Source: a virus. Taken from it: 36,360 bases of DNA. This document shows, in pieces, positions 14,942 through 30,421 of this stretch; the stretch's first letter is position 1; each line of letters begins with the position of its first letter. Below the pieces are notes generated by a model. It worked only from the letters and a program-made list of their open reading frames with translations. It was not told the origin of the DNA and searched no databases. The stretch spans positions 1 through 36,360 of the IMG/VR virus record IMGVR_UViG_3300020370_000017; one strand, given 5' to 3'. A program made the position numbers and the translations under genes.

Positions 14942-17900
14942 ATGGCTGATCTTCAAATAAGTCAATTGCCTCAGTTAGCTGAAGCAGATTTAGCGGCTGG
15001 AGATGAATTAGCCGTTGTAGACGGTAGTGCATCAGAAACGAAACGAATTACGGCTAAGGCTTTAGTAGAAAAAGGTGTTGCTTTAATCGATGCAGGTTCC
15101 ATCCCAGGTTCAGCACTTGCGGCTTTAGGAGCAAATACTGTTGTAACGGCAAGTATTACTGACTTAAATGTCACGGCATCAAAAATTGCAAACGCAACAA
15201 TAACAGCAACTCAGATAGCAAACGCAACAATAACTGGAGCCAAATTAGTCAACGATACTATTACTGCTACACAAATAGCTGCTAATGCAATAGGGGCAAG
15301 TGAATTAGCTGATGACGCTGTTGATACTGCTGCGATTTTAGATGCAGCAGTTACTAACGATAAGATTGCAAACGCAACGATTGCTTATGCAAAGTTAAAT
15401 CTAAGTGACGGAGATATTCCTGGTGCAAAATTAACTAATGACTCTGTTACTGCCACACAAATAGCAGCTAATGCAGTTGGTGCTAGTGAATTGGCTGATG
15501 ACGCTGTAGATACAAATGCAATAGCAAATTTAGCTGTTACATCAGGAAAGTTAGCAACTAATTCTGTTACCGCATCTAAAATAACTGATGGTGTTATTAC
15601 AGGTGCAAAACTTGTTAATGACACAATTACAGCTACTCAAATAGCGGCAAATGCTATTACTGCTTCTGAGTTAGCAGATGATGCTGTAGATACAAATGCA
15701 ATTCTTGATGATGCTGTAACTGCTGCAAAACTTGCGGCTGGTGCTGTTGATACAACAGCTTTAGGTGCAGCGGCTGTAACTGGAGCGAAAATTGCTAGTA
15801 CAACGATTACAGCAGCAAACATTGCGGCTGGCACAATTACAGCTACTGAACTTGCAGCAGATTCTGTAGGGGCTAGTGAAATAGCTGCTAATGCTGTAGG
15901 TGCTAGTGAGTTAGCTGACGATGCGGTTGATACTGCTGCCATAGTTAATGCAGCAGTCACCAATGCAAAGATTGCAGATGCAACTATTACTTATGCAAAA
16001 TTAAATCTTTCAGACGGTGATATTCCTGCTGCCAAGATTGCCGCTGGAGCAATTGGTAATACTCAGATAGCAGCAAATGCTGTTGGGGCAACTGAATTAG
16101 CAAATGACGCAGTTGATACCGCTGCAATTCAAAACTTAGCAGTAACTGGAGCAAAGATAGCTGCCAGCACAATTACAGGAGCAAAGATAGCTGCAACAAC
16201 AATTGAAGCTGGAAATATAGCTGCTAATACAATTACAGCCTCAGAAATAGCAGCAAATGCAATAGGTGCTTCAGAGTTAGCAGACAATGCAGTTGATACA
16301 GCGGCGATAGTAGACGCAGCAATTACTAACGACAAAATTGCAAATACAACGATTGCTTATGCAAAATTAAATTTATCAAATGGAGATATTGCTGGAGCGA
16401 AGATTGCTGATAATTCTCTTACAGCAACTCAAATAGCTGCTAACGCTATAGGTTCTAGTGAACTAGCAGATAATGCAGTTGACACCAGTGCTATTGCGGA
16501 TGATGCCGTCACAGGAGCAAAAATTGCAGCAGCAACAATTGAAGGAGCAAATATTGCTACTGGCACGATTACTGCAACTCAACTAGCTGCTGACTCTGTA
16601 GGCGCAAGCGAAATAGCAGCGAATGCGGTTGGGGCTTCAGAACTTGCAGACGATGCGGTAGATACAGCAGCAATAGCAAACTTGGCAATTACAGGAGCCA
16701 AGATTGCAAACGCAACCGTTACGGCGGCAAAGTTAAGTTTGTCTGCTGGAGATATTGATGGAACAAAAATTGCTAATGATTCAATAACAGCGACTCAAAT
16801 AGCAGCAAATGCAATAACAGCGAGTGAGTTAGCTGATGATGCGGTTGACACAGCCGCTATAGCTAATAACGCTGTAACAGCAGCAAAAATAGCAGCAAAT
16901 GCAGTTGGAGCATCAGAACTCGCAGACGATGCTGTTGATACGGCTGCTATTGCAGATGGTGCTGTTACTGCTGCCAAGATTTCAGGCACATTAAATACTG
17001 CAACTATTGCTGATAATGCAATAACAACAGCCAAGATTGCAGACGATGCGGTAACTAGTGCCAAGCTTGGAGCAAATGCAGTTGATGCAGCAGCCTTGGC
17101 TAATACTGCTGTTGGCACAGCAGCTATAGCGGATGCAGCGGTAACAGCAGCAAAAATCGGAACAGGTGCTGTCACAAATGCAAAATTAGGAGCAGATGCA
17201 GTAACAGCAGCAAAAATTACTGATGGAACTATTACAGCAGCAAAATTAGCTACTGCAAATATAGATAGATCGCTAAATGTAGCTTCTGGAAATTTAGGAA
17301 TCAATAATGTTATTTCGGCTGGAACTTCTGCTGGGATTACTTATAACGCCCAAGGCTTAATAACCGCTACAACTGCACTGGTAGCAAGCGATTTGCCTGT
17401 TGCAACTGCTACTGCCGTTGGAAGCGTTTCTGTTCCAACCGCAGGCGGTTTGACTGTTAGCGGTGCTGGTGCGTTGTCAATTGCAGCTACAACGACTGGA
17501 GCTACGGCGACAAAAGTTACTTTTAATAGTTTTGGACAAATAACAGGGACAGCAACATTAGGGGCTTCAGATTTACCTGTTGCAACTGCTAGTGCTGTTG
17601 GTGCGGTTTCCGTCCCAACTGGAGGCCCACTTTCGATAGATTCAAATGGTGCAATTACAGTTTCTGATTCAGGAGTAACAGCAGGTGTAGGTACAAAGCT
17701 TACGGTTGATGCAAAAGGTCGAGTAACTAACCTTGCAAGTCTTTCAGATAGTGATCTTCCTAATCACAGTGCAGCCTTAATTACTTCAGGAAGTATCCCA
17801 ACAGCAAGAATTGCAAATGATGCAATTACAGGAGTAAAACTTGCTAATGCTTCAACAACGCTATTTGGATCTGTAGCTCAGACAGGTTTCCCCACATCCG

Positions 17901-20900
17901 AGTTCACAGGGCAATTTTTCTTCGATTCTGTCTCTGAAGATTTATATATATATGATGGAAATGCTTATCAGCCAGTAACAACTTTAACAAAAGGTTCTCT
18001 GGTATTTGGTGGTACTTTTAACGCTTCAACAAGTAAAGTTGCAAGTGTAACAACCGCAGGTGCAGCAGCAGGTTTGACAGTTGGATCTAATGTTCCAACT
18101 CCGACAACTAGTACGGATGGTTTATATTTAGTGGTTGAAGCTTCTGGTACTCCAAGTGCGCCGGCTCCAGTAGTTGCTCTTGCTCCACCAGATTACATTT
18201 TAGGTGTTACAAATACATCTGGAAGTTCATGGGAAGAAATTGATTTATCGCAGACCGTGGCTGGGCAGGTTGCAAGCAATATTACCTTTACACCTTTTGG
18301 TCAACTTCAAAGTACAAATGTGCAAGATGCTCTTGAAGAATTAGAAACAGAGAAGTTAGCAAAAGCTGGTGGTACTGTTACAGGTGAGGTGCTAATAGGT
18401 AACACAGGAACACTTGTTTTTGAAGGTTCTAGTACAGACGCATATCAGACTACTTTAGGAGTTGTTAACCCAACTACAGCAGATAAAACAATACTTTTAC
18501 CTAATACTTCTGGAACTTTAATAACAAATAGTGATTCTGGCACAGTAACAAGTGCAATGATTGCAGATGCCACCATTGTTAATGGTGATATAAGTACATC
18601 TGCTGCAATTGCGTTTAGTAAATTAGCTGCTTTAACTTCTGCTCAAATTCTTGTTGGTAATGGATCAAATGTAGCCACATCAGTTGCAGTTACAGGGGAT
18701 ATAGCAATATCAAATGCAGGTGTAGTTTCAATTACGGCTAATTCGATTGTTGATGGTGATATATCTGGATCGGCTGCAATTTCTGGATCAAAAATTGTTC
18801 AAGGAACTACTTCTGTTCTAGGTGTTCTTCAACTAACAGACGCAGCAGATAGCACAAGTACTACTACGGCTGCTACTCCTGCTGCTGTTAAGACAGCTAA
18901 AGATGCTGCTGATGCTGCACAGGTAACTGCTGATGCGGCGTTGCCGAAAGCTGGTGGCACAATGACTGGCAATTTGATTCTGGATAATGCTTCGGAATTG
19001 CGTTTTACAGAAGCTGATTCAGATGGTGCGAATTACACAGCATTAAAAGCTCAGGCTCAGACTTCAGACATAACACTTACTCTTCCTGCTACAGCACCAA
19101 CTGCCAACCAAGTTCTTAAGGCTAATGCCAGCACACCTACCACTCTTGAATGGGCAACTGATACAACCAATACTGCTGCTGCTGATCTAACAGGTTCTAC
19201 TCTTGCTAGTGGCGTTACTGCCAGTTCTTTGACTTCGGTTGGGACTCTTTCTTCTCTAACTGTTAGTGGAACAATTACTGGAGATGTAACTGGAGACTTA
19301 ACTGGTAACGCAGATACAGCAACAATACTTGCTACGGCAAGAACAATAGGAGGAGTTAGTTTTAATGGTTCAGCAAATATAGATTTACCAGGCGTTAATA
19401 CTGCTGGCAACCAAAACACCACAGGAAATGCAGCAACAGCAACAAAGTTTGCTTCTGCGGTGACAATTGGTGGTGTGAGTTTTGATGGTTCAGCAAATAT
19501 TGATCTTGCAGGTGTTAATAGTGCTGGTAATCAAGACACTTCTGGAACAGCAGCACTTGCAACTCAGTTCACAGTCACAGCTAATAATTCTACAGATGAG
19601 ACTGTTTACCCTTTATTTGTTGACGGAGCAACAGGATCACAAGGAGCAGAAACAGATACAGGTTTAAGTTATAACCCTTCTTCTGGAGCCTTAACTGCAA
19701 CATCATTTGTAGGTGCATTAACAGGCAACGCTTCAACAGCAACAATCCTTGCCACAGCTAGAGATATTAACGGTGTTAGCTTTAATGGTTCTGCTGATAT
19801 AACAATTACTGCTGCTGCTGGGACTTTAACTGGTGCAACATTGGCTAGTGGGGTAACAGCTAGTTCATTAACTTCAGTTGGAACACTTACAGGTTTAACA
19901 AGTAGTGGTGATATTAATCTGAACGCTCAAGCAGACCTTCGGTTTAAGGATGCTGATAGCTCTCACTATGTCGCTCTTCAATCTCCTGCTTCTATTGCAA
20001 GTAGTTTTACTCTTACTCTCCCTTCGGCTGACGCTGCTGTTTCTGGCTATGTCTTAGCTAGTGATGGAGCAGGGACGTTATCGTGGGTTGATCCTGGTTC
20101 AACATCATCACCAACATTTACAGGAGATGTAAGTCTTACTAATGATGGTGCTTTAGTTGGCTTCTCAAATCTAAATGCAACTTATACAGGTAACGCAAAA
20201 ACATTAACGGTCACAGTTGCAACCAAGACTGGAGCGCATAGATATAACGGTTCTGGTTCTAGTTCTGGATACAAAATTGATGGTAAAGAATCTCCTTTCT
20301 TAACTCTTACACCAGGACGTACATATAAGTTTGATCAGGCTGATAGTTCTAACACAGGTCATCCTCTTCGTTTTTATTTAGAAGCAGATAAGACAACTGC
20401 TTACACCACAGGAGTTACTACTAGCGGAACTGCTGGTTCTTCTGGAGCTTATACACAAATAGCTGTTTCAGATACAACTCCTTCTGTTCTTCATTATCAA
20501 TGTTCTGCTCATTCCTTAATGGGAAATAGCGTTCAAACAAATAGTAATGCAGGAGTTGCTTCACTTGAAGTTAAGGCAGAGACATCAGACACAAGTTGTT
20601 TCCCTCTTTTTGTAAATGAAGCTACTGGTCTTTTAGCTCCAAAGGCAAACAACAGTCTTTTTTATAATTCATCAACTGGACAATTAAATGCAACTATTTT
20701 TTCTGGAACTTCTGCCTCTCTTACAAGTTTGGCACTTACTGGTAATGCCACAATTGGTGGCAATGCAACCATTACTGGAAATTTGGTTGTAAATGGAACC
20801 ACTACAACGGTTTCAAGTACCACAGTTGAAGTAGCTGACAAAAATATAGAACTTGGCAAAGTTTCGAGTCCTGATGATACAACCGCAGACGGAGGAGGTT

Positions 20901-22624
20901 TAACTCTTAAAGGTGCAACAGATAAGACATGGAATTGGGTTAATTCAACTGATGCTTGGACATCTTCCGAACATATTCAAGTTGCTAGTGGTAAGACATT
21001 TATTGGAGATGGCTCAACCTTAACTGCTTTAAATGCTTCAAACTTAAGCTCTGGAACTGTCAATGTCGCAAGACTTGGATCAGGAAGTTCTGTTACTACC
21101 AAGTTCCTAAGAGGAGACAATACATGGCAAACAATTTCTGCTACACCCGAAGGAACAGCAATACTTTCAACAGGCGAATCAGGTGGTACTAAGTTCCTAA
21201 GAGAAGACGGTGATGGAACGTGTTCTTGGCAGGCTGTTCCTGCGGCTGCTGCTGGTACGTTAACTGGCTCAACGCTTGCAAGTGGAGTAACAGCTAGTTC
21301 TCTGACTTCTCTTGGAACATTAACTGGCTTGACTGTTGCTGGAGATATGACATTAGATAACGGAACAAATGCTGGTAAAGATATATCGTGGGACGAGTCT
21401 GCTAATTCTCTAATATTTGAAAACGAAGTCAAAGCTCAGTTTGGCAATAGTACTCTTTTTCATAACAGCATCGATTTATATATTCAAAACGCAGTAGGAG
21501 ATATAAGATTTGAGCCTAAATCAGGTGAGCCTGGCCTTTGGCTGCATCGTGATGGTTCCGTCGAACTTTACGATGGGAACGCTGCTGGGGTGGCTGTTAA
21601 GAAATTTGAGACTACTGCAACAGGTGTAACAATAACAGGAACCTTAGTTGCTGATGGTTTAACTGTTGATGGTGATGTCACTCTGACAGGTGCAGCCGCA
21701 AATATCGTTTTTGATAAGTCAGAAGACGCTCTTGAATTTGCCGATAATTCTAGTGCTTTATTTGGAACTGGTGGTGACTTAACTGTTGCACATTATTCTT
21801 CTGGCAATCTTTCACGAATACATAATTCTGGTGCTGGTGGGTTAGATATTAAATCAACAAGCGGAGCAATAAGATTTAAGAGCGAGTCTGGTGGATCAGA
21901 ACAAACAGGAGCCACTTATACTCCTGCGGCTGGTTGGTCATTTGGACATGCAGGAGGAGAAAAACTTGCTACTAGTTCAACTGGAGTAACAATTACAGGA
22001 ACAGCTACAGCTACTACGTTTAGCGGATCAGGTGCTTCTTTAACAACATTAAATGCGTCAAACATTTCTAGTGGAACAATTGCAGCAGCTAGAGTTCCAA
22101 CACTCAACCAAGACACAACAGGATCTGCTGCAACATTAACAACAGCAAGAAATATTAATGGAACAAGCTTTGACGGCTCTGCAAATATAACGGTCACGGC
22201 TGCTGCTGGCACGTTAACTGGTGGAACTCTTGCCAGTGGAGTAACAGCTTCAAGCCTCACATCAGTTGGAACATTAACTGGGTTGACTGTTAGTGGAAAT
22301 ATTTCAATGACAGGAACAGGAGCAATTGATGTTGCTGCTGGAACAACAGCTCAAAGGCCTGGTTCTCCCTCAACTGGATTATTCAGATACAACACAACAG
22401 AGGGAGAGTTTGAAGGTTATGGAGCTAATGGTTGGGGTGCAATCGGAGGTGGTGGTGGTGGAGCAGTTGCAGGTGGACTTTATGAGTATTTAAGGAATCA
22501 AACTTCTAGTAGTAATTACAGTATTACAGCTAATTCTCAGGCTGATTCTTTTGGAACATTAACTGTTGCTTCTGGAACTTATATTGCAGTGCCATCTACT
22601 GCTAAATGGGTTGCTCACGGTTAA
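14942..22624 (+). CDS. Giant tail fibre protein (2560 aa)
   Basis: The largest gene in the window. Residues 1-60 (MADLQISQLPQLAEADLAAG...ETKRITAKALVE) form an attachment module seen in many phage fibres. Residues about 66-774 are a five-residue-period repeat domain. Residues about 775-1350 contain fibre modules such as GQVASNITFTPFGQLQSTNV and LPKAGGTMTGNL. Four copies of TLASGVTASSLTS(V/L)GTL occur near 19192, 19832, 21266 and 22220. A cupredoxin-like domain lies at about 1743-1870. Residues about 1950-2020 (VNGTTTTVSSTTVEVADKNI, LTLKGATDKTWNWVNSTDAW) match T4-like cyanophage fibres. The end (GTYIAVPSTAKWVAHG) looks natural rather than truncated. The role is host binding. Its stop codon overlaps that of the convergent minus-strand gene. 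Confidence 0.9.
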   Translation: MADLQISQLPQLAEADLAAGDELAVVDGSASETKRITAKALVEKGVALIDAGSIPGSALAALGANTVVTASITDLNVTASKIANATITATQIANATITGAKLVNDTITATQIAANAIGASELADDAVDTAAILDAAVTNDKIANATIAYAKLNLSDGDIPGAKLTNDSVTATQIAANAVGASELADDAVDTNAIANLAVTSGKLATNSVTASKITDGVITGAKLVNDTITATQIAANAITASELADDAVDTNAILDDAVTAAKLAAGAVDTTALGAAAVTGAKIASTTITAANIAAGTITATELAADSVGASEIAANAVGASELADDAVDTAAIVNAAVTNAKIADATITYAKLNLSDGDIPAAKIAAGAIGNTQIAANAVGATELANDAVDTAAIQNLAVTGAKIAASTITGAKIAATTIEAGNIAANTITASEIAANAIGASELADNAVDTAAIVDAAITNDKIANTTIAYAKLNLSNGDIAGAKIADNSLTATQIAANAIGSSELADNAVDTSAIADDAVTGAKIAAATIEGANIATGTITATQLAADSVGASEIAANAVGASELADDAVDTAAIANLAITGAKIANATVTAAKLSLSAGDIDGTKIANDSITATQIAANAITASELADDAVDTAAIANNAVTAAKIAANAVGASELADDAVDTAAIADGAVTAAKISGTLNTATIADNAITTAKIADDAVTSAKLGANAVDAAALANTAVGTAAIADAAVTAAKIGTGAVTNAKLGADAVTAAKITDGTITAAKLATANIDRSLNVASGNLGINNVISAGTSAGITYNAQGLITATTALVASDLPVATATAVGSVSVPTAGGLTVSGAGALSIAATTTGATATKVTFNSFGQITGTATLGASDLPVATASAVGAVSVPTGGPLSIDSNGAITVSDSGVTAGVGTKLTVDAKGRVTNLASLSDSDLPNHSAALITSGSIPTARIANDAITGVKLANASTTLFGSVAQTGFPTSEFTGQFFFDSVSEDLYIYDGNAYQPVTTLTKGSLVFGGTFNASTSKVASVTTAGAAAGLTVGSNVPTPTTSTDGLYLVVEASGTPSAPAPVVALAPPDYILGVTNTSGSSWEEIDLSQTVAGQVASNITFTPFGQLQSTNVQDALEELETEKLAKAGGTVTGEVLIGNTGTLVFEGSSTDAYQTTLGVVNPTTADKTILLPNTSGTLITNSDSGTVTSAMIADATIVNGDISTSAAIAFSKLAALTSAQILVGNGSNVATSVAVTGDIAISNAGVVSITANSIVDGDISGSAAISGSKIVQGTTSVLGVLQLTDAADSTSTTTAATPAAVKTAKDAADAAQVTADAALPKAGGTMTGNLILDNASELRFTEADSDGANYTALKAQAQTSDITLTLPATAPTANQVLKANASTPTTLEWATDTTNTAAADLTGSTLASGVTASSLTSVGTLSSLTVSGTITGDVTGDLTGNADTATILATARTIGGVSFNGSANIDLPGVNTAGNQNTTGNAATATKFASAVTIGGVSFDGSANIDLAGVNSAGNQDTSGTAALATQFTVTANNSTDETVYPLFVDGATGSQGAETDTGLSYNPSSGALTATSFVGALTGNASTATILATARDINGVSFNGSADITITAAAGTLTGATLASGVTASSLTSVGTLTGLTSSGDINLNAQADLRFKDADSSHYVALQSPASIASSFTLTLPSADAAVSGYVLASDGAGTLSWVDPGSTSSPTFTGDVSLTNDGALVGFSNLNATYTGNAKTLTVTVATKTGAHRYNGSGSSSGYKIDGKESPFLTLTPGRTYKFDQADSSNTGHPLRFYLEADKTTAYTTGVTTSGTAGSSGAYTQIAVSDTTPSVLHYQCSAHSLMGNSVQTNSNAGVASLEVKAETSDTSCFPLFVNEATGLLAPKANNSLFYNSSTGQLNATIFSGTSASLTSLALTGNATIGGNATITGNLVVNGTTTTVSSTTVEVADKNIELGKVSSPDDTTADGGGLTLKGATDKTWNWVNSTDAWTSSEHIQVASGKTFIGDGSTLTALNASNLSSGTVNVARLGSGSSVTTKFLRGDNTWQTISATPEGTAILSTGESGGTKFLREDGDGTCSWQAVPAAAAGTLTGSTLASGVTASSLTSLGTLTGLTVAGDMTLDNGTNAGKDISWDESANSLIFENEVKAQFGNSTLFHNSIDLYIQNAVGDIRFEPKSGEPGLWLHRDGSVELYDGNAAGVAVKKFETTATGVTITGTLVADGLTVDGDVTLTGAAANIVFDKSEDALEFADNSSALFGTGGDLTVAHYSSGNLSRIHNSGAGGLDIKSTSGAIRFKSESGGSEQTGATYTPAAGWSFGHAGGEKLATSSTGVTITGTATATTFSGSGASLTTLNASNISSGTIAAARVPTLNQDTTGSAATLTTARNINGTSFDGSANITVTAAAGTLTGGTLASGVTASSLTSVGTLTGLTVSGNISMTGTGAIDVAAGTTAQRPGSPSTGLFRYNTTEGEFEGYGANGWGAIGGGGGGAVAGGLYEYLRNQTSSSNYSITANSQADSFGTLTVASGTYIAVPSTAKWVAHG
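15137..17262 (+). repeat. Pentad (five-residue) repeat array inside the giant fibre gene
   Basis: About 140 tandem units of 15 bp encode a protein in which every fifth residue is Ile, Leu or Val. The intervening positions are mostly Ala, Asp, Asn, Thr and Ser, for example AVTAAKIAANAVGASELADD. Ten copies of a longer unit, close to GASELADDAVDTAAI, recur through the array. A spacer resembling AKLNLSDGDI interrupts it near 15390, 15995, 16360 and 16727. The spacing resembles pentapeptide-repeat or other beta-helical folds; the fold is inferred. Confidence 0.85.
20170..20556 (+). other. Cupredoxin-like domain within the giant fibre
   Basis: Residues about 1743-1870 of the fibre contain a compact, aromatic and His-containing segment unlike the low-complexity neighbours. 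It reads KTGAHRYNGSG, then FLTLTPGRTYKFDQADSS, GHPLRFYLEAD and VLHYQCSAHSLMGNSV. His1807, Cys1854, His1857 and Met1860 are arranged like the H...C-x2-H-x2-M ligand set of blue or red copper proteins. The strand pattern (TPGRTYKFD, HPLRFYL, LHYQCSAH) also fits a plastocyanin-type barrel. Similar segments occur in some cyanophage fibres as far as I recall. Copper binding is inferred from motif only. Confidence 0.65.
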
Positions 22625-24416: not shown

Positions 24417-25094
24417 CTATCTTGCAAATGGAGGTGTGGCTGGAAAATGATCATCTATAAAAATATTTAAAGTTAATCGTTCTGTTTCTCCATAACCAAA
24501 TGTTTGTGCAGCATGAAATTGTTGTCCATTAAACAAAAGTAATCTGTTATATACGTTTTTTATATTTATTGTTTCATAAAAATACGATTGATTACGTTCA
24601 AAAGCTTTTATATATTCTTTTTTGTCAAAAGGTTTTCCACTGTAAAGCTTTCTTTTATAGTTTAAGTCTTCTTGATAATAATTATAAATACCATTTTTAA
24701 AATTATAAATAGATGTTCCTGTGTTTTCTTGAGGATCTTTAGAAAGATAGACTAATCCTGCAAGCTGTTTGTAATCTTTGTGTATCCATCCTGTATTTGT
24801 AGGATCAAATTGATCTTTTTTTTCTTTTACAAAAGGTTTAATTTTTTGAAAATGTAATGAAGCAACCGTATTTTCAACTTGCTCTTGCCAAAATAAACTA
24901 TTTACTTTTCTAATAACATATTGACCAAAATCATAACATCGTTGGTCGTTAATAGTTGCTAAATTATCACATCTTATTCCAGGCCATCTGCCGCCACCAT
25001 ATTCGTCTTTTACATATTCAAGAGTATTAGAAAATTCAATAATTTTTTCTGGATCGGGGAAAAAATCGTCTACAACAGTAACAGGGAAAGACAT
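24417..25094 (-). CDS. 2OG-Fe(II) oxygenase-like protein
   Basis: A 225-residue protein with the metal-binding and cosubstrate residues of 2-oxoglutarate/Fe(II) dioxygenases: His105 and Asp107 (WIHKDY), His194 (QQFHAAQ) and Arg206 (ERLTLNIF). GTSIYNF after the first strand pair is also typical. The N-terminus (FPVTVVDDFFPDPEKI) fits DUF6445-like proteins. These enzymes usually hydroxylate proteins, nucleic acids or small metabolites; the substrate is unknown. The upstream neighbour is a clear paralogue whose stop codon directly precedes this start, so the two are co-translated. Confidence 0.8.
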   Translation of the reverse strand: MSFPVTVVDDFFPDPEKIIEFSNTLEYVKDEYGGGRWPGIRCDNLATINDQRCYDFGQYVIRKVNSLFWQEQVENTVASLHFQKIKPFVKEKKDQFDPTNTGWIHKDYKQLAGLVYLSKDPQENTGTSIYNFKNGIYNYYQEDLNYKRKLYSGKPFDKKEYIKAFERNQSYFYETINIKNVYNRLLLFNGQQFHAAQTFGYGETERLTLNIFIDDHFPATPPFAR

Positions 25095-25793
25095 TTAATT
25101 AATTCTTTCTAATGGATTTATTGAATAGTTATTGTTATATTTACATTGAATATTAGACGGAAAAAGTATTAATCTTGCTACATACCTTGTTTCTTCTGTA
25201 AAAGATGTTACACCATGCCAAAGGCTAGATGGAAAAATAACAGCTCTGTTTTGTTTGTTTTGAATTTTTGCAGTTTCTTTAAAGTTATTAAAGTATTTAT
25301 TGAAAATAATTTCTCTTTCTTCTGTTATTTCTTTATCTTGATTATATGCTTGTAAAGCATTTTGAAAATCTTCTACATAAGTATGTCCTTGCAGAAAGAC
25401 ATCTTGTTTTCTTTCGTAAAAACTTGTTCCTACATTAGTTTCTTTATGGTCGCTTAAGTAAATAATTACAGTAAGATTTGCCCCGAAAACATTGTCACAG
25501 TGAATTGCTCCTTTGTTAAAAGTTTGATTTGTTGATTTAAAAGAATCAATTTTATGAAAATCTATTGTAAGATTGCAATTTGCGATGTAGTCATTAGGAG
25601 GCCAAAAAATAGATATTACTTTTTCTGTTATGTAGTTATGTAATCCTAAATCTAATTTTTCCAAGCCTAAGCTTGAAGTTACACCAGTAGCACTGGAGCG
25701 TTTTACTTCGTACTCTGTGTTTTTGGCAATATTTAAAACGTATTCAACGTCAGGGAAAAAATTATCAATAAATAAAACAGGAAAAGATTTCAT
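25095..25793 (-). CDS. 2OG-Fe(II) oxygenase-like protein (paralogue of the next gene)
   Basis: A 232-residue protein with His98 and Asp100 (GAIHCDN), His193 (SSLWHGVTS) and a distal Arg207 (VARLILF). It shares with its neighbour the opening FPVLFIDNFFPDVE, the VGTSFYERK turn and the same spacing of the catalytic parts. The pair therefore arose by duplication, although the sequences have diverged widely. It is the first gene of the minus-strand block and starts about 100 nt from the divergent block. A fibre-modifying role is only a guess from position. Confidence 0.8.
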   Translation of the reverse strand: MKSFPVLFIDNFFPDVEYVLNIAKNTEYEVKRSSATGVTSSLGLEKLDLGLHNYITEKVISIFWPPNDYIANCNLTIDFHKIDSFKSTNQTFNKGAIHCDNVFGANLTVIIYLSDHKETNVGTSFYERKQDVFLQGHTYVEDFQNALQAYNQDKEITEEREIIFNKYFNNFKETAKIQNKQNRAVIFPSSLWHGVTSFTEETRYVARLILFPSNIQCKYNNNYSINPLERIN

Positions 25794-25895: not shown

Positions 25896-26099
25896 ATGTC
25901 TGCTATCTCTGAATTTGATGCTGCTGTTGCTGAATACAATGGCATCGTTGCTAGACAACAAGAAGCAAATAAAGCTGAACTTCAGCCTCTTGGTCAAAGA
26001 TTACAAGAATTACAAGCCAAAGTTATAGAAGAAGCTAGAGAAGCTGATAAACATGTTTGTGATCCAAATGCTAATAACGGTGAGGTGTCTCCTGAATGA
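25896..26099 (+). CDS. Small coiled-coil protein
   Basis: A 67-residue protein, strongly helical and charged (FDAAVAEYNGIVARQQEANK, ELQPLGQRLQELQAKVIEEA), ending in CDPNANNGEVSPE. The heptad-like spacing of Leu, Val and Ala suggests a coiled coil of about 50 residues. It begins the plus-strand block and its stop overlaps the next start (ATGA). The function is unknown; structural or assembly help is plausible because the downstream genes include cyanophage structural proteins. Confidence 0.6.
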   Translation: MSAISEFDAAVAEYNGIVARQQEANKAELQPLGQRLQELQAKVIEEAREADKHVCDPNANNGEVSPE

Positions 26100-26302
26100 T
26101 AAAAATAATAACTTGGATTAATTTCGCTGCTTTCATTTTGGGGGTAGCGAGTTTAGGTGGTGCATTTATTTTTAGATCAAAAATCTTTGATGCAGTACTT
26201 GATGGCGTTAAAAAAGAACTTCCTTCTTTAGTTCAAGATGCTATGCCAGAAATTCCAACCATTCCTTCTTCTACTGGCAGTGTTAATCCATTCGCCAAAT
26301 GA
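26096..26302 (+). CDS. Small single-pass membrane protein
   Basis: A 68-residue protein with a hydrophobic N-terminal segment (about residues 4-26, IITWINFAAFILGVASLGGA) followed by FRSKIFDAVLDGVKKEL. It ends in a Pro/Ser/Thr tail (MPEIPTIPSSTGSVNPF). Short cyanophage proteins with the same layout occur near tail and fibre genes, from memory. It overlaps its neighbours on both sides by 4 nt (ATGA), so its synthesis is coupled. A role at the membrane is inferred; no enzymatic motif is present. Confidence 0.6.
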   Translation: MIKIITWINFAAFILGVASLGGAFIFRSKIFDAVLDGVKKELPSLVQDAMPEIPTIPSSTGSVNPFAK

Positions 26303-26850
26303 TTAGTTGTATAGATAATTTTTTAGACCAAGATGATTTTATAAAAGTAAAAGATTTAATAACTTCTCCAATGTTTTCGTGGCATTTTAGTCAAATTTTA
26401 AACGATGAAGATAAAGAAATATCAACCCAAGTAGATAATAAAAAAGTAAAAGAAAAAATTAAACAATCTTTTTGCCAAAGTAATTTTAATTATCAATTTG
26501 TTCATTTATTTTATTATAATAATATTCCTACATGTACTTATTTTCAAAACTATATTGAACCAATTTACAATCTTTTAAAAGGAAAAGCGTTAATTAAAAT
26601 TAAAGCAAATTTAACTTCGCAAACAACAGATCATATTCTTTCGGGTTTTCATATTGATGCTTTTGAAGATAATTACACTTCAATTTTTTATATTAATAAT
26701 AATAATGGTTATACAGAATTTTTAGATGGAACTAAAATTGAAAGTAGAGAAAATCGTATGCTTACTTTTAGAGGAAATTGCTATCATAGTGGAGTTAGTT
26801 CAACAGATCAACTAGCAAGGATTGTTTTAAATTTCAATTACTTTAAGTAA
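26299..26850 (+). CDS. 2OG-Fe(II) oxygenase-like protein (third copy, plus strand)
   Basis: A 183-residue protein with His118 and Asp120 (GFHIDAF), His163 (GNCYHSGVSS) and Arg174 (LARIVLNFNY), the full 2OG/Fe(II) set. The segment SIFYINNNNGYTEFLDGTKI and ESRENRMLTFRG matches cyanophage oxygenases, and the N-terminus (MISCIDNFLDQDDF) also fits. It is only distantly similar to the two on the opposite strand, so it is probably a separate acquisition. The flanking genes look structural, so the substrate could be a virion protein or a host target. Confidence 0.82.
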   Translation: MISCIDNFLDQDDFIKVKDLITSPMFSWHFSQILNDEDKEISTQVDNKKVKEKIKQSFCQSNFNYQFVHLFYYNNIPTCTYFQNYIEPIYNLLKGKALIKIKANLTSQTTDHILSGFHIDAFEDNYTSIFYINNNNGYTEFLDGTKIESRENRMLTFRGNCYHSGVSSTDQLARIVLNFNYFK

Positions 26851-27408
26851 ATGATTCAATTCAAATCATTCAATGGTTTAACTTCTTTGGTTTTAGGCGG
26901 TGGACTTATTGCCACCAATTTTATGAGCTTAAACATGTTAGCTCGTAAAGATTCTGGCATACCTGATATAGCCAAGCTTTCTAATACTCCTTACAGCAGT
27001 CTTCAAATCAGAAGTGAGAAAGGTGCTGATGGTGCAGAAGAATGGAGTTTTGCCAGCCGTCAACACGATCCAAAAACAATGCTTCAGTATGAATCTAGTG
27101 AAGCTCCTAGCTTTAATGGTGGTGTAAAGACTAGACATACGCATAAAGAATCTGTTGCTCAGTTCATTACATATCCGCAAGGCTCAGACGGTAAATTAAC
27201 GGCAAAACAGATTGAATGTATTGAAAAACAAGCCCAAGGACGCAGTAATGGACAGATGATTGCTGATGCTGGATCGGTTCAGGTAACACCAGCCATAGCA
27301 AGCGTTCCAATAGTAGGCCCAGTATTAGCAGGAATCTTTTTTGGTCAGGCTAGGAAACAGGTAGGAAATGTTGCGAGTGATCTTGCTGGTCAATGGAACG
27401 ACTGCTAA
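26851..27408 (+). CDS. Unknown protein with two hydrophobic segments (cyanophage-type)
   Basis: A 185-residue protein that starts directly after the oxygenase stop. Residues about 8-28 (NGLTSLVLGGGLIATNFMSL) form a hydrophobic N-terminal segment. Residues about 143-166 (VTPAIASVPIVGPVLAGIFF) form a second one. The middle is polar (SSLQIRSEKGADGAEEWSFA, TRHTHKESVAQFI) and probably globular. It shares an operon with a conserved cyanophage structural protein downstream. I do not recognise a function. Membrane anchoring or virion location are both possible. Confidence 0.6.
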   Translation: MIQFKSFNGLTSLVLGGGLIATNFMSLNMLARKDSGIPDIAKLSNTPYSSLQIRSEKGADGAEEWSFASRQHDPKTMLQYESSEAPSFNGGVKTRHTHKESVAQFITYPQGSDGKLTAKQIECIEKQAQGRSNGQMIADAGSVQVTPAIASVPIVGPVLAGIFFGQARKQVGNVASDLAGQWNDC

Positions 27409-28227
27409 ATGGAAATAGAAGAGATAGGAATAAGAGAGATACCAGACGCTTCTATTGATACAACAATAATCCGCACATCAAATCCACAAATACCTAGCAA
27501 TATTGGTTTTCCAGTAATTCAAATGCCTGGCTGTGTAAGAGCTAGGACTTTAAAAAATAAGAATTTAGTAACTAATGATCCTAGAGGAAATTTTTATGTT
27601 TGTGATGGAAACGTACCAACGCTTGAAAGCATGGCTGTTGATTGGGACGGATTATCTGCTGTTGGGCCAGTAAAAGCAGAAGAACCAGAAATAGTTCCAC
27701 CTATTCCAAAGTTAAAAGGGAATAAGAGAAAGGAAGTGGAAAAAGAGAATAGCGAAGATAACGAGCAGGGAGAGACCAATGTAGGGCAACAAGATTTTAA
27801 AGTTCCAGATATTGATGGACAGTTTATTGCAGATATTTTACCTTGCCCACCGTTAGACACACTTGCTAAAACTCCTGTTGGTTCGTTAGGTAAAGGCGGA
27901 CTTGCAAGAATTAAAGGCTGGAAAAGAGATGTGCTTACAGGCAAGTGTGAGACTGTTTGGGAAGGTTTAAGTCCTATAGAAATTGCAGGTAATTACGCCC
28001 CACAACCTACAGTTTTAGTAAATACATCTGTGATTGCTGTTACGTCAGTTATTGGTGTTACTGTGATTGGTCAACCGATTGCTAAGTTTTTCCAAAAACA
28101 ACTTAAAGGTCAAGTTAAATCATTTTCTAAGAAGATTACTAAGAAGCTGTTAGCTATTCGGGGGAAGAAACCTCCTGTAAAGTCCCTCGCTGAAAGGAAA
28201 AAGGAACAGAGGTTGTCTCGGAAGTAA
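27409..28227 (+). CDS. Conserved cyanophage structural-type protein
   Basis: A 272-residue protein starting directly after the previous stop. The N-terminal motifs IGIREIPDASIDT, FPVIQMPGCVRARTLKNKN, NDPRGNFYVCDGNVPTLESM follow the pattern 'P-V-x-x-x-PGC-V...DP-x-G-x...CD-x-x-x-P' that I recognise from T4-like cyanophage virion proteins. A Pro/Lys/Glu-rich linker (residues about 90-130) follows. A hydrophobic stretch (about 207-225, VIAVTSVIGVTVIG) and a very basic tail (KKITKKLLAIRGKK onward) end the protein. The last 74 nt overlap the convergent gene on the minus strand. Confidence 0.68.
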   Translation: MEIEEIGIREIPDASIDTTIIRTSNPQIPSNIGFPVIQMPGCVRARTLKNKNLVTNDPRGNFYVCDGNVPTLESMAVDWDGLSAVGPVKAEEPEIVPPIPKLKGNKRKEVEKENSEDNEQGETNVGQQDFKVPDIDGQFIADILPCPPLDTLAKTPVGSLGKGGLARIKGWKRDVLTGKCETVWEGLSPIEIAGNYAPQPTVLVNTSVIAVTSVIGVTVIGQPIAKFFQKQLKGQVKSFSKKITKKLLAIRGKKPPVKSLAERKKEQRLSRK

Positions 28228-29005
28228 TTTCAATACTATGAGTGTGATCTGGCAATGTATTAGGAGGATTGACTAAACGAACATCTTCACAGACAACATA
28301 ACTAGGACTGTCTTTTGCATAAACCACCCCAAGTTTAAGTTGCTCAGCGCATACCTTCAAACGTCCAAGAGCGTAATCTAATTTTTTAGCTTTATATGCT
28401 TGCTCTAAATACTTTACCCTTGTATTCATGGCAGCCACGCAGTTATTAGTCATGCGTCTATCTAGTGGAACGGCAATTGTAGCTGTAATGCCATAGTTAA
28501 AACTTAAGTTATTTTCAGCTTGTCCAGTTCTAATTGGTTTTGTATATAAAACTCCACCAGGGTTAGTTAAGTTTCCATCTGCATCTGTACTATCGTCATA
28601 TACATTTTCATTGTAGTAAGGTTCAAACGGATCCTTCCAAGTGTTGACTTTTGAAATGAAGGGATTGATGGTAAGAGTCGTTCCACTGCAACGGATTCCA
28701 TCGCCTACTTCTTGAAACATGAAGCTCCCCGACTGCACCTGGATTCCCTGGTTAATCACACTGCCCTGGCTAGTAGCTGAAGGTGATGCTATTGTTGTGG
28801 CGTTTGCAAATACTGGCTGACTAAATGTTATTGAGTAAAGACAGATACCGATTCCACAATAGATTCTGTTGTAGTGGTTCGGTTGATTGTCGTTACATTT
28901 GAAAGGCCTGGATTTGATAGAGTTTCTGTGAATGAGAAAGCGTTGCCAGCAGTTTTTATTCCCCAGTCGGGTTTGTTTGCTGGTGTTACATCTACTGATG
29001 TCCAT
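28154..29005 (-). CDS. Secreted cyanophage-type protein with uncertain start codon
   Basis: The reading from ATG 29005 is 283 residues, but its first 48 (MDISRCNTSKQTRLGNKNC onward) look like an out-of-frame shadow of the overlapping gene. The natural protein seems to begin near IYCGIGICLYSITFSQPVFA, a signal-peptide-like stretch (28864-28805). However, this frame has no ATG, GTG or TTG between 28900 and that segment. The body (SQGSVINQGIQVQSG, GDGIRCSGTTLTINPFI, YTKPIRTGQAENNLSFNYGI) matches secreted proteins of T4-like cyanophages. A non-standard start, a -1 shift from the upstream gene or a sequencing indel could explain the start. It is the last gene of the holin-like block. Confidence 0.68.
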   Translation of the reverse strand: MDISRCNTSKQTRLGNKNCWQRFLIHRNSIKSRPFKCNDNQPNHYNRIYCGIGICLYSITFSQPVFANATTIASPSATSQGSVINQGIQVQSGSFMFQEVGDGIRCSGTTLTINPFISKVNTWKDPFEPYYNENVYDDSTDADGNLTNPGGVLYTKPIRTGQAENNLSFNYGITATIAVPLDRRMTNNCVAAMNTRVKYLEQAYKAKKLDYALGRLKVCAEQLKLGVVYAKDSPSYVVCEDVRLVNPPNTLPDHTHSIEITSETTSVPFSFQRGTLQEVSSPE

Positions 29006-29274
29006 GTGAATGTAATGTTATCAACTGTTTGAGGTGCATTTAGTACAGCTTTAGGTGAAATAGTATTTGTATTTATTGGTTCAATATTATGACCAGAAAC
29101 CACATATTCATACCCACTTCGATAATCAACTGATGTTATAGTTTCAGCTACTACAGTCTTAGTTTCCTGTCTGCTATTAAGAGTTCCTGTCGAAAATGTA
29201 GGAACTACAGGAACAGCAGAAACGCTAGTTCCTGTAAAAGATATGAGCAACAATAACTTATATATTTTACTCAT
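28828..29274 (-). CDS. Secreted protein with signal peptide (AFSF-motif family)
   Basis: A 148-residue protein with an N-terminal signal peptide (MSKIYKLLLLISFTGTSVSA, cleavage likely near residue 20). The mature part is Thr/Ser/Val-rich (STGTLNSRQETKTVVAETIT). It contains YEYVVSGHNIE and IKTAGNAFSFTETLSNPGLS. The motif VSG-x-N ... TAG-x-AFSF-x-E is shared with the gene just upstream, so the two are paralogues. Similar proteins occur in T4-like cyanophages, function unknown. It overlaps the downstream gene for up to 178 nt depending on that gene's start. Confidence 0.72.
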   Translation of the reverse strand: MSKIYKLLLLISFTGTSVSAVPVVPTFSTGTLNSRQETKTVVAETITSVDYRSGYEYVVSGHNIEPINTNTISPKAVLNAPQTVDNITFTWTSVDVTPANKPDWGIKTAGNAFSFTETLSNPGLSNVTTINRTTTTESIVESVSVFTQ

Positions 29275-29280
29275 TAAATA

Positions 29281-29781
29281 TCATTTAACGGTAATTTCTG
29301 ATGAATACTGAGCCGTCCCAGTAGTCCCGGCCCCTCCAGCAACGGTTGTTGCAATTCCAGCAGAAGTTACTGTCCCTGCAAGGTTTCCAGCAACTCCGCC
29401 TGATGTCACTACGGTATTACCAAAAGCAGGCATGTCAGCAACAACTCCAGCAGAAACATCTACACCTGAGCCAATGGCAGGGATAGCGTCACCTTGGAGC
29501 CAACTTTCGGAAAACGAAAATGCCGACCCGGCGGTATTTACCTCGTACACACCAACATCAAGTGTTGCTGCTGCTGTAGCTGTACCTGCTGTTAACTTTC
29601 CGAAGTGTTCTCCAGTAGTAACTTTCATGTTGTTACCAGAGACAGCGTAAGTAGATGGAACTCTAATGGCCTGTACTGCTGCTCCATCAACTTTTAAACT
29701 TGTTGAAGCTGTGTGTTTGATTGCTATGTCGGCACTGGCTGGTGCTGCTAATAAAAGCAGTAGGGGAAGAAAGCGTTTCAT
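29281..29781 (-). CDS. Secreted protein with signal peptide (AFSF-motif family)
   Basis: A 166-residue protein with a clear signal peptide (MKRFLPLLLLLAAPASADIA, cleavage after ASA). The mature protein is rich in Ala, Gly, Thr and Val. It contains RVPSTYAVSGNNMKVTTGEH, YEVNTAGSAFSFSESWL and GAGTTGTAQYSSEITVK at the end. That layout matches small secreted cyanophage proteins that I recall but whose function is not known. Its start overlaps the upstream XhlA-like gene by 4 nt (ATGA). It could act in the periplasm or be incorporated into the virion. Confidence 0.75.
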   Translation of the reverse strand: MKRFLPLLLLLAAPASADIAIKHTASTSLKVDGAAVQAIRVPSTYAVSGNNMKVTTGEHFGKLTAGTATAAATLDVGVYEVNTAGSAFSFSESWLQGDAIPAIGSGVDVSAGVVADMPAFGNTVVTSGGVAGNLAGTVTSAGIATTVAGGAGTTGTAQYSSEITVK

Positions 29782-29987
29782 AAGTAAGCCTTACTGATTT
29801 GTGCTAATAGACCTAATAATGCCAGAGCAGCACTAACTACTGCGGCAGCTTGGAATACCCTTTTCTCTAAAAGTCTTACCCTGTCTTCTAAATCTTTTAT
29901 TTTTTCTTCTGCTCGCTTAATTTTCATCTCTTGGCAGACAATACGAGTTTCTTGTCTTGCATCAATCGAAAGATCTTCACTCATCAT
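29778..29987 (-). CDS. XhlA-like coiled-coil membrane protein
   Basis: A 69-residue protein. Residues 10-45 form a charged coiled coil (MKIKRAEEKIKDLEDRVRLL), and residues 46-65 are a membrane segment (AAAVVSAALALLGLLA). This N-coil/C-membrane layout is that of XhlA-type lysis accessory proteins. It starts with tandem ATGs at 29987 and 29984 preceded by GGGAGG, one of the strongest ribosome sites in the window. The site lies at the end of the holin-like gene, whose stop overlaps the start. A lysis role is inferred from architecture and neighbour. Confidence 0.6.
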   Translation of the reverse strand: MMSEDLSIDARQETRIVCQEMKIKRAEEKIKDLEDRVRLLEKRVFQAAAVVSAALALLGLLAQISKAYL

Positions 29988-30421
29988 GTCAACCTCCCAC
30001 TTTCAGGGTCAATAGGCTTGTTTGTAATAGGATCAACTTTTGGCTTGTCTGGTACTAATTTTACTGGAGTTTCAATTCTTACAATTGTGTAAGGTACACC
30101 TCCTATCTCTCCTTCTGCTTTCTTTTTCTCTTCATCAGCCTTGTAAGTTCCATCACCTCTTTTTTTTGCTGTATCAATTCCAAAACTTGCCAGGCACCCG
30201 GTGAAAACACTTGCTATAAAAGTCGGGTCGATCCTTTCTTGTTTACCTAAACCAGGAATAGTTACATAGTTAAGTGTTAAGATAAAACCACTCCAAACTA
30301 CAACTCCTAATCTCACAAATACCGAAAGGACTTGCAGTTGTTCTTCTTTATCATCAAATCCCTCTTTTAATCTTTGTAGGGGATTTTTCTTTTTCGGTTC
30401 GTCTACTTTTGACTCTGCCAT
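29984..30421 (-). CDS. Holin-like membrane protein (candidate)
   Basis: A 145-residue protein with a basic N-terminus (MAESKVDEPKKKNPLQRLKE). Two membrane segments follow at about residues 30-52 (LSVFVRLGVVVWSGFILTLN) and 65-85 (DPTFIASVFTGCLASFG). A long charged cytoplasmic tail ends the protein. This fits class II holins, and similar proteins (NPLQRLKEG...LNYVTIPGL) are found in cyanophages without known function. It is the first gene of the minus block, 51 nt from the divergent plus gene. No endolysin gene is recognisable nearby, so the holin assignment is tentative. Confidence 0.55.
   Translation of the reverse strand: MAESKVDEPKKKNPLQRLKEGFDDKEEQLQVLSVFVRLGVVVWSGFILTLNYVTIPGLGKQERIDPTFIASVFTGCLASFGIDTAKKRGDGTYKADEEKKKAEGEIGGVPYTIVRIETPVKLVPDKPKVDPITNKPIDPESGRLT

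Follow-up and report, generated by a model that had tools for sequence, protein, structure and literature searches.

Our analysis concerns a compact gene module in the virus record IMGVR_UViG_3300020370_000017 of IMG/VR, of which positions 1 to 36,360 were analysed as one stretch of 36,360 nucleotides (nt), hereafter the window. On the minus strand, five open reading frames (ORFs) run from 30421 to 28154, and all five lie where a preliminary description of this DNA had placed them. Starting from 30421, the first encodes a holin-like protein with two transmembrane (TM) segments (29984..30421), which belongs to DUF6450 (Pfam PF20048, E 6e-32) and phrog_2714 (E 2e-41), the same family as T4-GC218. 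It is followed by an accessory protein of 69 amino acids (aa) with a coiled coil and a C-terminal TM segment at residues 44-62 (29778..29987), and then by three proteins that are predicted to be exported: SP1 (166 aa; 29281..29781; phrog_564, E 6e-46; T4-GC237), SP2 (148 aa; 28828..29274; DUF6322, Pfam PF19847, E 1e-28; phrog_650; T4-GC236) and SP3 (283 aa; 28154..29005; phrog_848, E 3e-68; T4-GC235). ATGA overlaps join the DUF6450 gene to the 69-aa gene and the 69-aa gene to SP1, as had been described; SP1 and SP2 are 6 nt apart, and SP2 and SP3 share 178 nt (28828..29005), which had been missed.

The block is real as a unit but had been drawn too small, since the plus-strand genes at 26096-28227, which it meets head-on, belong to it too; it is thus one half of a two-strand module of about 26096-30421. 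The nearest of the plus-strand genes encodes a membrane protein with four conserved cysteines, one TM segment and a basic C-terminal tail (27409..28227; phrog_570, E 3e-32; T4-GC234), and its 3' end overlaps that of SP3 by 74 nt. The others encode a two-TM protein (26851..27408; phrog_605, E 1e-14; T4-GC219) and a 68-aa protein with a single TM segment at residues 8-26 (26096..26302; phrog_568, E 6e-6; T4-GC414), a family that carries the name "plasmid stability".

The region shared by SP2 and SP3 codes in two frames. Near its hydrophobic segment, SP3 lacks a standard start codon; the sole one available is the ATG at 29005, which lies within SP2 in the -1 frame, its distance to the downstream SP2 stop being 178 nt. 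Among 155 loci we find two main start arrangements, with a few loci using other upstream starts. At 132 loci the final 54 codons of SP2 are free of stops in the -1 frame, while at 19 loci an ATGA at the stop of SP2 provides the start of SP3, and SP2 is closed in its -1 frame. With expected counts obtained by synonymous reshuffling, 48 non-redundant sequences of the deep-start type contain 15 stops in the -1 frame against 176.5 expected, and 44 of them are entirely stop-free against 0.99 expected; 14 sequences of the ATGA type, which serve as a control, contain 70 stops against 58.4 expected and so show no depletion. Moreover, a conserved TGG codon at the deep-start loci is preceded almost without exception by A, which makes ATGG, even though the codon that ends in this base varies (ACA, TCA, CAA, TTA): codons for threonine, serine, glutamine or leucine end in A at this position in 44 of 47 cases, as compared with 3 of 14 in the control. 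The ATGA loci form a single clade on the SP3 tree, so that their arrangement reflects one change rather than many, and dual coding is conserved in myo-, sipho- and podoviruses and lost in that clade alone. We regard dual coding, with predicted initiation of SP3 at the internal ATG, as established by comparison. Synonymous-site constraint within the close group (0.22 in the overlap versus 0.35) is uneven along the gene and is not used as evidence. That SP3 is instead made as a fusion to SP2 through -1 ribosomal frameshifting, as its frame relative to SP2 might suggest, is highly improbable and we reject it, because the open -1 frame mostly begins just 5-10 codons before the conserved ATG, because the ATG-forming base is kept despite amino-acid variation, and because one clade has a separate ATGA start.

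The overlap also explains why, in GenBank, many genomes of cyanophages have SP3 missing, shortened or given a different start. The annotations of S-WAM2, S-PRM1, S-RIM32 and S-T4 omit SP3, those of P-SSM4 and S-H68 begin it downstream of the conserved ATG, and that of 9515-10a has no SP2, apparently as a result of a bias of gene callers against long overlaps.

Conservation as a unit, on which the preliminary description had let its own proposal stand or fall, was tested across 48 loci, each flanked on either side by at least 3.5 kb. In 45 of them SP1, SP2 and SP3 run in the same direction and are followed by the convergent T4-GC234 gene, a grouping far beyond chance; the position of DUF6450 varies, being either just before SP1 or past the convergent genes. 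The same module is present in the siphovirus MED4-184, and a reduced one in the podoviruses P-SSP7 and 9515-10a. In P-SSP7, gp43 is the DUF6450 protein, gp44 and gp45 match the SP2 and SP3 profiles (E 9e-9 and E 2e-14, respectively), and gp42 resembles T4-GC234 by architecture; 9515-10a has the same genes. Phage records number 437 for SP3, 410 for SP2, 207 for SP1 and 312 for DUF6450, and within the phage collection all of them are Synechococcus or Prochlorococcus phages, cyanophages, or unnamed marine or uncultured viruses. Fifteen SP3 relatives come from genome records titled Euryarchaeota, Formosa, Nonlabens and others; these are mostly contigs of metagenome-assembled or single-cell genomes and probably represent mis-binned cyanophage DNA, and we do not take them to indicate a bacterial or archaeal origin.

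The T4-GC numbers annotated in P-SSM4, P-HM2 and S-SM1 identify the module genes as T4-GC237, 236, 235, 234, 219, 414 and 218. Relatives had been expected in cyanophages, and they have in fact appeared in print as a conserved hypothetical cluster: Sullivan et al. (2010) reported T4-GC 218, 219, 234, 235 and 237 together with the plasmid stability gene as a "mobile hypothetical" cluster in 15 of 16 T4-like cyanophages, S-PM2 being the sole one without it (PMC3037559). PHROG and Pfam matches, annotated T4-GC numbers and the synteny at 45 of the 48 loci all place the module of the window in this cluster. On the function of the cluster or on cyanophage spanins we found no literature beyond Sullivan et al. 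(2010) and Kongari et al. (2018).

What kind of proteins are these? Signal peptides were judged by eye and by hydropathy. Those of SP1 and SP2 are clear, of cleavable type and conserved across 25 aligned sequences each; the third one that had been proposed, in SP3, sits behind a 47-residue basic extension, where a hydrophobic segment ends in an AxA-type site (SITFSQPVFA/NA). SP1 is a homologue of SP2 (hhalign 97%, partly owing to the signal peptides). SP2 is predicted to form a long beta-hairpin of two strands of 23-24 residues (predicted local distance difference test, pLDDT, 79), and SP3 a beta part plus a 42-residue helix (pLDDT 70), the mature part of SP3 having four invariant cysteines. 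Sequence searches against solved structures gave no credible match for the module proteins, and none of them has a CsgG or curli match in Pfam. The weak Foldseek list for SP2, of pore-toxin stems and ring proteins, is what one would expect of any long hairpin and is not counted as evidence. In BFVD there are five significant matches, and the named ones are phage proteins of the same family without function.

The DUF6450 protein (145 aa) has TM-like segments at residues 31-49 and 64-82, and its small size, TM segments and charged ends are those of a holin, bearing out the holin-like assignment made earlier. The XhlA-like label given to the 69-aa protein fails, since its score against Pfam PF10779 is 14.7 bits where the gathering cut-off is 34.7; its gene, which is preceded by GTGGGAGGTTGACATG, is seen in just 4 of 15 close loci. 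In most members of T4-GC234, four conserved cysteines lie ahead of the one TM segment. The C-terminal tail carries 16-19 lysines or arginines in most myovirus members and in the window and fewer in MED4-184 and the podoviruses; the podovirus members also lack the conserved cysteines. This pattern of cysteines, TM segment and tail suggests that the N-terminal domain is extracytoplasmic.

When would the module be expressed? We examined 43 non-redundant loci of T4-like relatives in which SP1 leads the operon, and 23 of them have TAAATA in the interval from -42 to -22 ahead of SP1, where 1.1 would be expected, and not further upstream. CTAAATA was found before T4-GC234 at none of 50 loci. For comparison, the T4 late consensus used by Sullivan et al. 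is TATAAAT (PMC3037559). Since TAAATA is an element of T4-late type, SP1, SP2 and SP3 are probably late genes in the T4-like relatives.

The position of the module points the same way in other lineages. In T7, the holin gene lies between the tail fibres and the terminase genes, and the spanin genes adjoin the latter; gp42-gp45 of P-SSP7 likewise lie between tail-fibre and terminase genes, a match that supports a lysis-cassette position. The window virus is siphovirus-like, with tail genes and a protease-major-head fusion related to S-CBS1, S-CBS3 and S-LBS1, and its module lies between the tail genes and a RecT/exonuclease block. Its capsid relatives S-CBS3 and S-LBS1 have, after their tail genes, small putative membrane proteins and an endolysin (Phage_lysozyme/peptidase M15), and SP2 and SP3 were not found in them. 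In the window we found no PF00959, PF13529, PF01510 or PF01464 (SLT) domain, the only wall-hydrolase families searched. More broadly, a stand-alone Phage_lysozyme is present in 0 of 20 module carriers and in 3 of 7 non-carriers, namely S-PM2, S-CBS3 and S-LBS1 (Fisher p 0.012, for related genomes that are not independent); the search covered the four families in eight carriers and PF00959 alone in the other twelve. In S-PM2, which lacks the cluster, the stand-alone lysozyme occupies a 169-aa open frame, and S-CREM2, a non-carrier without SP2 or SP3, has a C39/GH19-like (C39 and lysozyme) lysis cassette. Among carriers, PF00959 occurs only inside open frames of 925 and 627 aa, in S-SM1 and Sf-CH8.

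Some further observations on the window may be recorded here. The protease fused to the major head protein is one ORF at 111-2348. A 2560-aa tail-region protein (14942-22624) has an N-terminal stretch with dozens of near-identical short repeats like ANAVGASELADDAVDT. Three genes matching PHROGs 1644/274 (24417-25094, 25095-25793 and 26299-26850) flank the plus-strand half of the module; one of them also matches 2OG-Fe(II) oxygenase families, and for these genes we are inclined to doubt the names given by PHROG, "minor coat protein" and "endonuclease V".

Taken together, these results lead us to favour, if tentatively, the reading that the module is a late host-exit cassette of marine picocyanophages that breaches the cell envelope. 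A lysis or envelope module had been suggested earlier, and that part of the proposal is the best reading we have, without its XhlA component and its smaller extent. How might such a cassette work? In our reading, DUF6450 would open the inner membrane in the manner of a holin. SP1, SP2 and SP3 would be exported late, oxidised, and assembled in the periplasm or outer membrane, oxidation being proposed for SP3 because of its four invariant cysteines. SP1 and SP2 would contribute the long beta-hairpin subunits of this envelope assembly, and T4-GC234, with its cysteine-bearing N-terminal domain, C-terminal TM segment and basic tail, would anchor the complex to the inner membrane. Together these proteins would then breach the outer layers, taking the job of the Rz/Rz1 spanins. 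We can also imagine, as a possibility of which we are somewhat more doubtful, an outer-membrane breach that needs neither spanins nor lipoproteins and that is common to unrelated lineages of marine picocyanobacterial phages, in which the hairpins of SP1 and SP2 and the disulfide-bearing SP3, tethered by T4-GC234, would make up an outer-membrane pore or fusion complex.

Several points weigh against the host-exit reading. S-PM2 is listed as spanin-less and yet lacks the module, and in Syn5, PSS2 and S-CBS4 we found neither SP3 nor DUF6450 nor Phage_lysozyme. The 27 related genomes of the lysozyme comparison were partly picked for known traits, and the limited wall-hydrolase search means that carriers may have an endolysin of another type. 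The window, with neither a terminase nor a portal gene, is probably incomplete. The module of T4-like phages has replication or photosynthesis genes nearby, and its position shifts. Finally, T4-GC234 has no export signal that would account for an N-out topology, and Foldseek returned nothing significant against the PDB.

Could the exported proteins instead remodel the surface of the infected host, for superinfection exclusion, adhesion or a protective coat, with no role in lysis? Three exported proteins, two of them homologous, could make a surface layer, and the variable position of the cluster in T4-like phages would suit such a role. The late promoter type, the lysis-cassette position in two unrelated lineages and the missing CsgG/curli match argue the other way, and we consider surface remodelling rather unlikely. 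A place for the exported proteins in the virion, say as decorations of the tail tip or fibres that undergo periplasmic maturation or have N-termini resembling signal peptides, also strikes us as unlikely. In P-SSP7 the genes directly follow those of the tail fibres, and a late-type promoter would suit structural genes equally; however, the conserved, cleavable-type signal peptides of SP1 and SP2 would route these proteins away from virion assembly in the cytoplasm, and the module is common to unrelated tail types and, in several T4-like phages, does not adjoin the structural block.

The hypothesis of Sullivan et al. (2010), that of an accessory cassette moved by the plasmid stability protein and without a role in lysis, seems to us more improbable still. 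It would account for the variable position and for the occurrence with three tail types. However, the product of the "plasmid stability" gene is a single-TM protein of 68 aa, which by itself is no evidence of mobility, and the queries used here recovered the gene at 17 of 19 distant loci and at 11 of 14 named ones; moreover, the strict order of SP1, SP2 and SP3 and the dual coding of SP2 and SP3 point to a constrained function. Relatives in phrog_568/T4-GC414 are single-TM proteins of 65-95 aa, and it is the family's name on which arguments for mobility in the literature have drawn.

If our host-exit reading holds, the module offers a concrete, conserved and testable candidate for cell opening that is common to myo-, sipho- and podoviruses. 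Lysis of Prochlorococcus and Synechococcus by viruses accounts for a major flux of carbon, and the module is the best candidate so far for how marine cyanobacterial viruses leave their host cells. Apart from function, the SP2/SP3 overlap provides a well-controlled natural experiment in dual coding.

How does the module compare with systems already described? The cluster of Sullivan et al. (2010) has the same gene families in the same convergent order, but was described in T4-like myoviruses only and was assigned no function. To it we add the siphovirus-like genomes including MED4-184, the reduced podovirus version, the dual-coding overlap of SP2 and SP3, the late-promoter-like element in T4-like relatives, the evidence from lysis-cassette position, and the overlap of carriers with spanin-less phages. 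The lysis cassette of S-CBS3 and S-LBS1 occupies the same place after the tail genes in related siphovirus genomes, but has a lysozyme where the window has none and lacks the SP2 and SP3 that the window has.

The comparison with spanins is the closest. A survey by Kongari et al. (2018) found no spanin candidates in about 20 Prochlorococcus and Synechococcus phages and suggested that the host outer membrane may be too fragile to need disruption; the phages listed as spanin-less include P-SSP7, P-SSM4, P-HM1/2, P-SSM7, S-RSM4, S-SM1 and others (PMC6139136), and many carriers of the module are among them. The same authors suggested that an N-out/C-in protein with a C-terminal TM segment, together with an outer-membrane protein, could stand in for spanins (PMC6139136), and the features of T4-GC234 would fit such a topology. 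Like Rz/Rz1 (PMC6139136), the module has predicted exported envelope proteins encoded by genes that overlap in different frames and are poorly annotated on that account, and in its podovirus and siphovirus carriers it has a lysis-cassette position. Indeed, an overlapping pair in different frames is one of the three known architectures of two-component spanins, and SP2/SP3 has it (178 nt, -1 frame). On the other hand, a rough six-frame scan of the window revealed no lipobox, the signal of an o-spanin, and none of the proteins is a type II i-spanin with an N-terminal TM segment, SP1 to SP3 having cleavable-type signals and T4-GC234 a C-terminal TM segment; in their stead there are three predicted exported proteins, among them a beta-rich SP2 and a cysteine-bearing SP3. 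The module should therefore not be filed as a spanin set; on present evidence, it would work like a holin-spanin set while being built from different parts.

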